Part shown: positions 723 through 23,930 of the stretch, one piece after another
Layout: each line of letters starts with the position of its first letter
Numbering within the stretch: the first letter of the stretch is position 1
Virus record (IMG/VR): IMGVR_UViG_3300006108_000013
Coordinates: 1-64,000 of that record
Direction: 5' to 3' (one strand)
Origin: a virus
DNA length: 64,000 bases
The notes under the pieces: generated by a model
Told to the model about the DNA's origin: nothing
Databases searched by the model: none
The model's input: the letters and a program-made list of their open reading frames with translations, nothing else
Position numbers and translations under genes: made by a program

Positions 723-1451
723 ATGAAAAAGTTTACAACTCTATTAACAATATTATTGATTTCTATTTCAGCATATGCTGGTGATAAAGAGCCAATACCA
801 TTAACATCAACCAATACACCAATCACTTATTCGATTGGGGCGAAGTATCAGGGAGGTAGTGTTTCAACTTTAAAAAATGGAAAGTGGACAGGTTATGGTT
901 GGGCAAATAAAGAGACAGCGGTATTGAGAGCAGACTTCCACAATGGTCTTGAACTTATTTTTGAAGATTATTTAACCGAGAATCAGGTTAAAACATCTTC
1001 TACAAAGATAACTTCTAAGACTACAACAGTTAATCATCATAAGGTTATTACAAAGACAACCACAACTACTCATAAGACAACTGAAGCAACGGCTGGTGGA
1101 TTTGAAATTAAACCTAGATATACCTTTCATCTTACAAAGAAATTAGATTTTGGTTTACAAGTTGGTTTAGGAGATAGTTATGGTATACATAATACAGCTT
1201 TAGTTAATAAGTTCTATTATATTGGTGAGGCTCGTTTTGTTTATAAAGTTAATGATTGGTTAAAATTAAGAACAAGTTTCCAAATCCAAAATCCATTTAA
1301 TACTCAATATGACAATTGGGTTAATACAGTTAAAGTTGGTCCTGATATTAGAATTACAAAGAATATTGATACTACTATATCTTATGTTAATAATTTTGGT
1401 GGAACTCAACATGGTAACGCGTTTGAAACCGCACTTAATTATAGATTTTAA
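723..1451 (+). CDS. Predicted outer-membrane beta-barrel protein
   Basis: A 242-residue protein with a classical signal peptide: Lys-Lys, a hydrophobic core at residues 5-16, and a likely cleavage after AYA at 19. A Thr/Lys-rich linker follows at about 90-123. The C-terminal half has alternating hydrophobic and polar residues and ends in Tyr-Arg-Phe, the terminal-Phe signature of outer-membrane barrels recognised by BamA. This indicates a Gram-negative host and insertion into its outer membrane during infection. Phage outer-membrane proteins such as lambda Lom are known; a role in superinfection exclusion or surface remodelling is inference. No specific family is recognised. Confidence 0.7.
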   Translation: MKKFTTLLTILLISISAYAGDKEPIPLTSTNTPITYSIGAKYQGGSVSTLKNGKWTGYGWANKETAVLRADFHNGLELIFEDYLTENQVKTSSTKITSKTTTVNHHKVITKTTTTTHKTTEATAGGFEIKPRYTFHLTKKLDFGLQVGLGDSYGIHNTALVNKFYYIGEARFVYKVNDWLKLRTSFQIQNPFNTQYDNWVNTVKVGPDIRITKNIDTTISYVNNFGGTQHGNAFETALNYRF

Positions 1452-7327: not shown

Positions 7328-7719
7328 AATACACTGACAACTACATAAACGAACTAAAGCCAAATGAAATTTTTGTATTTGGTTCAAATCTAAAAGGTAT
7401 TCATGGTGCAGGAGCAGCAAAACTCGCAAGAGAGAAATTCGGGGCTGAAATGGGAGTTGGTATTGGTATTACTGGGCAGTGTTATGCAATACCAACTAAA
7501 GATGAAATGATTTGGACTTTACCACTTACCAGAATCGAAGAACACGTTATGGATTTTCTGGATTATGTAAAGGATGTGCCTGATAAGATTTTTCTTGTCA
7601 CTCAAATTGGGTGTGGATTGGCTGGTTATACACCAGAAGATATTGCACCAATGTTTAAAACCCATCCCAGTAACGTAATTATCCCAAGAGAATTTCATGA
7701 AGTTATTTCTCATATGTAG
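7324..7719 (+). CDS. Macro-domain-like phage protein
   Basis: This 131-residue protein contains FVFGSNLKGIHGAGAA (18-33) and later VTQIGCGLAGY, a pattern of small phage proteins (A1S_2505-like) that resemble macro domains, which bind ADP-ribose. The glycine-rich loop and the IGCGLAG motif match ligand-binding loops of that fold. An ADP-ribose or NAD-related role is inference. It overlaps the methyltransferase stop (ATGA) and the next gene by 23 bases. Confidence 0.65.
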   Translation: MKYTDNYINELKPNEIFVFGSNLKGIHGAGAAKLAREKFGAEMGVGIGITGQCYAIPTKDEMIWTLPLTRIEEHVMDFLDYVKDVPDKIFLVTQIGCGLAGYTPEDIAPMFKTHPSNVIIPREFHEVISHM

Positions 7720-7933
7720 TTTATTTTTTGCAAGTGTTTGCTTTGCAGACACTAATAATATAAACTATATAAGTTTAAATGATAAAGAAATAGCTAAAGA
7801 GAAATTAGAAAACCTTTATACTTTAAAGGTTTCAAAATCTATAATTTTAAGCGGCGAAAATTTTATTGATTATAATAATTTCAATAATATTAATAGGATA
7901 AGAACTTATACCACTATTAAAATAAATTTCTGA
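7697..7933 (+). CDS. Small exported protein
   Basis: Starting at the ATG at 7697, the 78-residue protein has a clear signal peptide, MKLFLICSLFFASVCFA, with likely cleavage before Asp18. The mature part is Asn/Ile-rich and about 61 residues long. The gene overlaps the upstream one by 23 bases, which makes the start less certain, but the signal peptide is convincing. It would act in the periplasm or outer membrane of the host. Function unknown. Confidence 0.55.
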   Translation: MKLFLICSLFFASVCFADTNNINYISLNDKEIAKEKLENLYTLKVSKSIILSGENFIDYNNFNNINRIRTYTTIKINF

Positions 7934-21227: not shown

Positions 21228-23930
21228 ATGTCAACTTTAACTATAACCTCACCAGGCGTTCAGATCAATGAGTTAGATCTTAGTTTAATATCTAACACAA
21301 CAGGAAACACAAATGTTCTCGCTGTTGGTTTTGCTAACCAAGGTCCGACAAACGAACTTATCAACGTAAGCAGTATCAGTGAATATGAAAATGTTTTTGG
21401 TCTTCCATCAAATGCAGCAGAGCGTTATCTCTATCACAGTGCTCGTCAGATTTTAAACACCTCTCCTGCCAATTTAAATATTGTTAGATTGCCTTATGGT
21501 ACTGGAGTTGGAAATGGTTATACAAGTAATCATAGCGCATTAGTATATCCAGTTTCAACTAATACACCTCTCTTTTCAACTGCAACAAGTTATACACTAT
21601 TAGAACCAGTTTCAATTCTCTTAAATGATGCACAATATGCTCAGCTTAAACAGAACAATATTACTTGGGGTGTAAGTCCTTATACCTCCACTACAGTTCA
21701 AGTTACTTCTGGTACTGTTACTGGATCAACTAGTGCTGCTGTACTTTCTTCATACTATGCATCAAACTTCATTAATGCTTCCGATGTTATCAGTACATCC
21801 TTTAGTTCAATTAATTCTGCTGTCAGCGTATCATACTATCCACACATTGCATCAACCGTAAGTATAAATCTTGTACCTACATTTGGTGCTATTACATCAG
21901 CATATGCTCTTTCTGGATATGCTAACACTTTTGTTGGTAATACCACAGCTTACTATAACAGTAATAATATTAACTTGATTACAACACCAAACTATGTATT
22001 ATCAAGTAGTCAGGTTGGAACATTAACAGCAGCTTCAACTCTCACAGGTTATACAACAGCATATAACGGAAGTTATAATCTCCAGCCTTTCACTGGATTC
22101 GGTAGCTTATCATCAAATTTTGTTAGTGGTTTAGTAGTTATCAATGAATCAAAGACAACTATCGATAATCTTTATCAAGGATATTATGTTGCAATTGCAT
22201 CCAATCAAGGTGTAAACCCAGCAACAAACTTTAATAGTGTAACTGGTGTAAGATCAGTTTATCAAATCGATTCAAATGGCGTAACTCAAGATTATATCAC
22301 AGTACCAACTAATAGATTTAATACACCAACTACGACGAATTACGGACCTTTAACTTCGACCTATAACAATTTCGGACCTGCAAGTATTTCGCAAATTGTT
22401 GAACAATTCCCAACAGGTTATAACTGGGCTTCCCCATCGTATCAAGATAGTTTATCAATTGTTCTCTTTAAGATCAATACATCAACTTATAATCAAGATA
22501 CAATTAAGTTATCTTATGCTGCGGCTGAAGGTTATGTCGGTTCACTTTATTCAAAGAGAACCCAAAGTAATGCAAATGGCGGTGCACCTGTAACATTCTT
22601 CATCGATGATGTTGTAAATAATGCATCAAAGAATATCAGTGTTCGTACAAACCCATACATCTCATCAAATGGTAACTGGACAGGATCAACAAATAATCTT
22701 AATCAGTATATTCCGCCTAAACAGGTAGGAGTTGCACCAGTTGCCCAAAACATCTATGCTTCTGGTTTATATCAATCAACGACTGATTATACTACAAAGG
22801 ATGTTGGCAATATTCCAGCAAAATTACAGACGGTTTTAAATACAATTCAAAACGATGATACAATTCAACTTGATATCTCAATTGAAGCTGGATTAGGAAC
22901 TATTTGGGCAAGTTGTAATGCATTATCTTCAGTATCACCAGCTGGCACACCATTATATTATTCTGAGTCATACAACTATCAGTTTAATCTTGGAACCACT
23001 GCTGACGCTGGCGCACCAAGTACTGGCTTATATGATATCACACAAGGTGCTTCATCTGGAACCGCTCCTTGGGCAAGTGGTGCTGGCGCAGATTACTTAA
23101 GTGTAGCTCAGCAGTTCGTTTCCCTTGCAAATGACACAAGAAAAGATCACATCTTTATTGCTGATCCAATCAGACATTTGTTAATTCAGGGTACAGATAA
23201 TAAAGTTACCGCAAATCCAAACTTTGTTTTCTCAAATGATGTATATTGGCCCCTCAACAATCAGTTTGGTTCAATCAATAGTAGTTATGTAACAACATAC
23301 GCTAACTGGATCAAATACAATGATGCAACATCAAACAAATTAGTTTGGATTCCATCATCTGGATATGTTGCAGCTAAGATGGCTACATCATTCCAGCAAA
23401 CATTCCCTTGGAATGCAGTTGCTGGATTTACAAGAGGCGGATTAGATAATGTTGTAGATCTCGCAATTAACCCAACCCAAAAGCAGAGAGATTTACTCTA
23501 TAAGGTAAACTTAAACCCAATTGCATACTTCGCAAACGAAGGTTATGTAATCTATGGTCAGAAGACCCTTTATAGAACACCATCTGCCTTTGATAGAATC
23601 AATGTACGTGAGTTGTTCTTGGTATTAGAAAAACAAACTCAAGCATTACTCAAATACTTTGTATTCGAACCAAATACTTATACAACACAGACAAGATTAG
23701 TTGCCGCATTGAAGCCATTATTTGATAATGCAAAAATCAACAACGGTTTATATAACTACTTGATTGTTTGTGATAGTAGAAATAATACACCAGATATTAT
23801 CGATGCTAATGAATTGAAGGTATCAATTTATATCCAACCAGTTAAAACCGCTGAATTCATCTTGTGTGACTTCATCGCAACACAAACAGGAGTAGACTTC
23901 AGCGAATTAGTTGCTAATAACCAATTCTAA
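21228..23930 (+). CDS. Tail sheath protein, gp18-like
   Basis: A 900-residue protein. The N-terminus LTITSPGVQINELD and the following SISEYENVFG are standard for contractile sheath proteins. The C-terminal 250 residues (GFTRGGL..., a long region with DRINVRELFLVLEKQ, then a beta-rich end with VKTAEFILCDF) form the conserved sheath core that interlinks subunits. It is longer than T4 gp18 (659): a Ser/Thr/Tyr-rich insertion at about 110-300 probably decorates the outside of the tail. The sheath contracts during injection. Confidence 0.95.
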   Translation: MSTLTITSPGVQINELDLSLISNTTGNTNVLAVGFANQGPTNELINVSSISEYENVFGLPSNAAERYLYHSARQILNTSPANLNIVRLPYGTGVGNGYTSNHSALVYPVSTNTPLFSTATSYTLLEPVSILLNDAQYAQLKQNNITWGVSPYTSTTVQVTSGTVTGSTSAAVLSSYYASNFINASDVISTSFSSINSAVSVSYYPHIASTVSINLVPTFGAITSAYALSGYANTFVGNTTAYYNSNNINLITTPNYVLSSSQVGTLTAASTLTGYTTAYNGSYNLQPFTGFGSLSSNFVSGLVVINESKTTIDNLYQGYYVAIASNQGVNPATNFNSVTGVRSVYQIDSNGVTQDYITVPTNRFNTPTTTNYGPLTSTYNNFGPASISQIVEQFPTGYNWASPSYQDSLSIVLFKINTSTYNQDTIKLSYAAAEGYVGSLYSKRTQSNANGGAPVTFFIDDVVNNASKNISVRTNPYISSNGNWTGSTNNLNQYIPPKQVGVAPVAQNIYASGLYQSTTDYTTKDVGNIPAKLQTVLNTIQNDDTIQLDISIEAGLGTIWASCNALSSVSPAGTPLYYSESYNYQFNLGTTADAGAPSTGLYDITQGASSGTAPWASGAGADYLSVAQQFVSLANDTRKDHIFIADPIRHLLIQGTDNKVTANPNFVFSNDVYWPLNNQFGSINSSYVTTYANWIKYNDATSNKLVWIPSSGYVAAKMATSFQQTFPWNAVAGFTRGGLDNVVDLAINPTQKQRDLLYKVNLNPIAYFANEGYVIYGQKTLYRTPSAFDRINVRELFLVLEKQTQALLKYFVFEPNTYTTQTRLVAALKPLFDNAKINNGLYNYLIVCDSRNNTPDIIDANELKVSIYIQPVKTAEFILCDFIATQTGVDFSELVANNQF

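Follow-up and report, generated by a model that had tools for sequence, protein, structure and literature searches.

Our data predict that an accessory gene at 723-1451 on the + strand of a T4-like phage genome encodes an exported outer-membrane beta-barrel protein of 242 residues, a prediction that combines its open reading frame, several sequence signals and weak family matches. That the product folds as a barrel and is located in the outer membrane we regard as probable, the evidence being moderate; that it is a late-made, host-type barrel which alters the surface of the infected cell is the best explanation overall among those weighed here, albeit one that we put forward tentatively.

The window, i.e. 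the whole stretch of DNA analysed, covers the opening 64 kb of the 88.7-kb record of a large tailed phage that is represented by metagenomic DNA alone. A preceding sequence-only reading had described this genome as T4-like, and the description is borne out by sheath, tube, terminase, UvsX-like, DNA polymerase, SbcC-like and ssDNA-binding families, all of which match PHROGs. Between 56.8 and 63.8 kb lie sugar genes with matches to epimerase, cytidylyltransferase, GHMP kinase, transaldolase, SIS and glycosyltransferase families, and a phage lysozyme (PF00959) is present. Shortly before the lysozyme gene, with a small membrane protein in between, lies a candidate unimolecular spanin (L025:15184-15765; record positions 79184-79765), a lipoprotein that has a membrane segment at its C-terminus; seven other records (G003, G019, G024, G027, G034, G036, G039) contain look-alikes that start in a similar way. 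Since no family model matches the spanin candidate convincingly, its name is a reading of the sequence, and as a predicted unimolecular spanin it suggests that the host has an outer membrane. Scanning genome_contigs for the host group with the sugar-kinase gene found nothing, the scan using exact peptide seeds that reach close relatives only. A related 163-kb record (G003) carries an array of 16 tRNA genes (L033:10486-18505); the window's own record has none.

In the window's list of open reading frames, 723-1451 is a single frame open over 242 codons, an event with a probability of about 3e-9 for a random frame of the assumed base composition, and its GC content is 31.3% compared with 32.8% for the window. 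By reading, residues 1-19 (MKKFTTLLTILLISISAYA; 723-779, + strand) form a Sec signal peptide, with MKK followed by a hydrophobic core and AYA-G; our home-made export filter flags the protein as well, placing the cut at residue 16 rather than 19. The protein lacks cysteine and is therefore not a lipoprotein. Of the 36 residues from 89 to 124 (987-1094, + strand), 15 are Thr and 6 are Lys, and the last nine residues (234-242; 1422-1448, + strand), FETALNYRF, match a beta-signal pattern and have the form of the ends of OmpA (LSLGVSYRF) and OmpG (AGVGVNYSF). The export signal, Thr/Lys-rich stretch and aromatic C-terminus that had been noticed beforehand are all confirmed, within one frame of 242 codons.

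Reading the mature protein by hand gives ten strands in which long loops alternate with short turns, an alternation that would place both ends of the protein in the periplasm. It follows from this strand order that the Thr/Lys-rich stretch, earlier taken as a linker outside the barrel, is present as described and yet would lie between strands 3 and 4 as an outward, extracellular loop or hairpin. A home-made amphipathic-strand script, normalised against 2000 shuffles of the protein itself and run beside 45 control proteins, likewise places ten strand windows, a number that 430 of the 2000 shuffles also reach; eight of the ten coincide with hand-drawn strands (starts near residues 34, 127, 141, 169, 180, 203, 214 and 234). 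The strand score (z=2.06) beats 1978 shuffles, is equalled or passed by 22 and exceeds that of every control (45/45; highest 1.76). It is, however, about half that of the OmpA barrel (3.9) or OmpG (4.2), and by raw score three of the 45 controls (ycbU, fabA, ycjU) lie above our protein. This weakness relative to true outer-membrane proteins speaks for a rival explanation that sees the product as a secreted or periplasmic protein, rich in beta structure but not a barrel. So do two AlphaFold models from single-sequence input, which give no fold (pLDDT 31 and 30) and both draw a hairpin at the Thr/Lys stretch, at pLDDT below 50.

Family searches bear on the same question. The best Pfam match is the porin family Porin_OmpG (PF09381; E=0.01, or 0.0073 without the signal peptide) at about 14.6-16.5 bits, far below the curated cut-off of 26.5, and the best NCBIfam match is the AcfA family outer membrane barrel (NF033908; E=0.006) at 16 bits, far below a cut-off of 100, with a soluble enzyme second (E=0.03). 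As the OmpG model also scores below cut-off in the archaeon Methanocaldococcus jannaschii, so weak a match can be chance, a point on the side of the non-barrel protein. Among Pfam outer-membrane barrels, including Ail/Lom, omptin and OmpW, OmpG alone matched at E up to 10, a search in which HMMER filters may hide weaker matches. When the mature protein was reversed or shuffled eight times and searched against Pfam, no barrel family came up, and unrelated families appeared down to E=0.024. All the same, a beta-rich protein other than a barrel seems to us unlikely, because the top matches in both libraries are barrels and because the canonical C-terminus is joined to an export signal and is itself uncommon in these phages: the pattern (F, W or Y last; hydrophobic residues at -3, -5 and -7) fits 5/945 ORFs in an initial set and 22/2889 in a larger one. 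The outer-membrane barrel, claimed previously from the signal peptide and C-terminal Phe, is the best-supported reading, and it is unproved in that the models are of low confidence, our searches found no homologue and the family matches fall far below cut-off.

If the product is a barrel, the OmpG match invites the idea of an outer-membrane porin through which the infected cell would take up more of the small solutes around it, an auxiliary metabolic role. Such an idea has precedents in the viral porin OmpL from marine virus contigs (PMC8115048) and in the phage CsgG pores, for which uptake of larger molecules is proposed as the simplest reading (PMC7029224). We think it improbable nonetheless: apart from the match being below cut-off, about ten strands would, we infer, leave a narrow lumen, and late expression would bring little benefit in uptake. 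The Thr/Lys-rich loop and the weak AcfA-family match could instead point to an adhesin-like barrel whose long loop would attach to nearby cells or surfaces and draw new hosts close to released phages, much as 'sibling capture' is proposed for pelagimyophage curli genes (PMC7029224). As no adhesin family in Pfam or NCBIfam matches the protein, so that loop composition is the sole support, this seems more doubtful still.

Barrel proteins had been called rare in T4-like phages, and within the scope of our searches the statement holds. We found no relative of the barrel protein in GenBank phages and none in the 71 virus records that share genes with the window (0/6 and 0/15 at E up to 10; 0/50 at E up to 1), a set with many fragments and some loose relatives; the gene therefore looks accessory. 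Scans of viral_contigs with the whole protein and with its C-terminal half, and of genome_contigs with the protein, also gave no relative, exact peptide seeds reaching close relatives only. There was no match in PHROGs, nor a relative among PDB sequences (one chance match, E=0.8) or plasmids (71 records matched at E up to 10, the best 20 of which lie at E=1 to E=9 and are mostly TrbL), and with phmmer the best other ORF of the compared records stood at E=0.64. No report of this protein family was met in the part of the open-licence literature surveyed.

The joint count of export and beta-signals also bears on rarity. The larger set, made of pieces of 26 records including the window's own (2.27 Mb in all, with 2889 ORFs no shorter than 60 aa), contains 89 ORFs that pass the export filter, a crude one which misses the exported protein at 7697 (see below). 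Five ORFs carry both signals where 0.68 are expected (hypergeometric P = 4e-4), a value that is partly post hoc since the beta-signal pattern was written with the barrel protein in view. Moreover, four of the five belong to one small exported family and so are not independent. The barrel protein is the only double-positive ORF longer than 99 aa among the 2889.

By analogy with T4, late transcription of the barrel gene appears the somewhat likelier case, because ATAAGTA (709-715, + strand), which starts 14 nt before its start codon and is one mismatch away from a late-promoter-like ATAAATA, resembles T4 late promoters. The latter have the form TATAAATA. In the window, ATAAATA is found at -12 to -14 from the start codon of 8/81 genes when exact and of 18/81 with at most one mismatch, compared with 0-2/81 and 0-7/81, respectively, at four control offsets. 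Exact copies precede the genes at 2572, 11042, 12469, 23960, 24528, 27076, 38914 and 42372 at this distance, and the gene at 21228 at -19; among the genes so preceded are those for the tail tube and, at -19, the tail sheath, along with some outside the structural block, such as 2572 and 11042, and some that are not classable as late. A motif common to tail genes would fit a product that is itself part of the virion. This we judge highly improbable, however, given that the product has a signal peptide, that its gene is distant from the structural block and that no copy was found in any of the 71 records searched. A Sigma-70 promoter scan was uninformative (45 sites versus 43 in shuffles). In transcripts that start from ATAAATA at 12-14 nt, the leader would be very short, if present at all.

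The barrel gene sits in a variable slot. On its 5' side is a gap of 190 nt (533-722) with no + strand ORF of at least 40 aa, overlapped by an antisense ORF of 81 aa (581-826); downstream come a 52-codon ORF and then a phosphoesterase gene (1650-2219, + strand; PHROG 547, E=1e-39) which has relatives in other records and forms the right edge of the slot. Close relatives keep the phosphoesterase gene and differ in the stretch just upstream, an observation that supports variability there. In this place G002 encodes two proteins, a Pro-rich one bearing a signal peptide and another with a PEP-CTERM-like end, and G003 a lipoprotein rich in Tyr and Gly, some 1.7 kb upstream of the phosphoesterase, so that in the window, G002 and G003 alike an exported protein is encoded no more than about 2 kb upstream of it. 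A dedicated 'envelope slot' is not supported by the wider set, where the same filter flags an upstream exported ORF at just 6/25 loci (L074 and L075, which are once more G003 and G002, L082, L089, L091, L096), those without one including L072, L073, L077, L078, L079, L080, L081 and L083. The G002 gene with the PEP-CTERM-like sorting end (L075:2411-3001; TIGR02595, 15 bits versus a cut-off of 16) has a signal peptide as well.

The small exported protein at 7697-7933 (+ strand; 78 aa, ending in TYTTIKINF) belongs to a family that we grew from three orthologues by profile searches until further records were reached. Full-length members occur in 14 records as 11 distinct sequences (window 7697-7933; L046:1833-2069; L032:17977-18279; L080:6153-6452; L072:5477-5767; L188:12221-12451; L195:19584-19823; L198:5949-6215; L200:1693-1938; L160:3992-4222; L228:1472-1720), and a fifteenth record has a truncated copy. 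An aromatic last residue is found in 14/14 records (13 F, 1 W), with one of the searches selecting for such an ending and two others not. A profile built without the L072 and L080 members recovers both (E=3e-3 and 3e-4, respectively). Two members searched in GenBank phages and four in Pfam gave no match, and among nine members PHROG matches were single and weak (best E=0.0045). The truncated gene is seen in G028 (L225:16653-16805 and L081:6149-6301), and G027 has a full-length one with a lipoprotein about 2 kb away that is identical to that of G028.

With a mature length of about 60 residues and two strands by reading, the small protein cannot close a barrel alone; judged from its sequence it may be an oligomer, a periplasmic plug or a decoy for BAM. 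Its ending resembles the C-termini of TonB-dependent receptors. Origin from such receptors is unsupported (PF00593 in 0/9 records, nothing in Pfam), and of two profile searches of PDB with the small protein the first had a soluble regulator as its sole match, at E=0.11, and the second had no match. A common origin of barrel and small family was likewise rejected, the best domain scoring -1.5 bits. The small protein also occurs where the barrel does not, in G002 and G003. As for the sequence-only reading that this phage reshapes the host surface at several levels, the 7697 protein does belong to a real family and the glycan genes are real; their common purpose is inferred, and no sequence kinship links the barrel to the small family. 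A layered outer-membrane programme, in which the small proteins, each with a hairpin of two strands and an invariably aromatic C-terminus, would act as BAM decoy or oligomeric pore to alter host outer-membrane proteins and the slot would supply envelope proteins particular to each phage - here a complete barrel that replaces a host surface protein - can be imagined, though we give it very little credence.

Our preferred explanation, a surface-altering barrel, would run as follows. As accessory cargo in the variable slot, the gene would be transcribed probably late and its product exported by Sec; the C-terminal beta-signal would be recognised by the BAM machinery, and the protein would insert as a small barrel of about ten strands with its long Thr/Lys-rich loop facing outward. 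The changed cell surface might then keep further phages, or new progeny, from useless adsorption to the cell or its debris. Sugar-nucleotide and glycosyltransferase genes in the same genome count in favour of a surface role, which we prefer to the others because the lytic phage T5 acts in this way through an envelope protein and pelagimyophages combine surface genes similarly (PMC7029224). T5 is described as altering its host receptor via the small envelope protein Llp (PMC9586334), exclusion as sparing phages from infected cells and debris (PMC9586334) and receptor inactivation as a common strategy (review PMC11436027). By this analogy surface exclusion is a possible function of the barrel, if a slightly less secure proposal than surface alteration as such. 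Many phages are said in PMC9586334 to make exclusion proteins early, so that late expression fits poorly unless protection of progeny is the aim. If our reading is true, a T4-like phage puts a barrel of its own into the outer membrane of its host, probably at a late stage of infection, and one can then test whether such phages remodel the host surface to exclude others, to protect progeny or to aid uptake. The small exported family is the more general lead, being common to several phages of the group and without a described relative in the libraries searched.

How does the predicted barrel compare with known systems? OmpG (PF09381) is an exported barrel too, to which our protein aligns weakly over 132 residues and with a similar C-terminus (NYSF versus NYRF here); in contrast, it has 13 strand windows rather than 10 and is a cellular porin, and the match reaches 16 bits against a cut-off of 26.5. 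Likeness to the AcfA family (NF033908) extends over 74 residues, again weakly, with 16 bits against a cut-off of 100. Lom, which is akin to Ail, and Lc porin are phage outer-membrane proteins, those of the Lom type coming from temperate phages. Lom-type genes resemble ours in being phage genes for host-type outer-membrane proteins, but a Pfam search of our protein up to E=10 listed no Ail/Lom family. LomW of phage 933W is named as a phage-encoded outer-membrane protein in PMC6692519; in PMC5082946 porins appear only as host genes. OmpL, as presented in PMC8115048, is a viral porin with a conserved beta-barrel and thus another outer-membrane barrel gene carried by a virus; unlike ours it sits with glnK and the ammonium transporter gene amtB and is traced to Bacteroidetes, and the likeness is drawn here from its description. 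Llp of T5 and Cor of phi80/N15 are, according to PMC9586334 and PMC11436027, phage envelope proteins that alter the host surface against further infection, as we propose for the barrel; Llp, however, is a small periplasmic lipoprotein, whereas the barrel protein has neither cysteine nor lipobox and reads as a barrel. CsgG and CsgF of pelagimyophages (PMC7029224) share with it the setting: they are outer-membrane pore genes within a region that is hypervariable across a large group of phages, which carries LPS genes too, yet they are of another family and form an operon there as opposed to a single gene here. Outer-membrane proteins borne by viruses are thus known already, and to these the 723-1451 product would be, from its sequence, an unrelated-looking addition in a T4-like phage.
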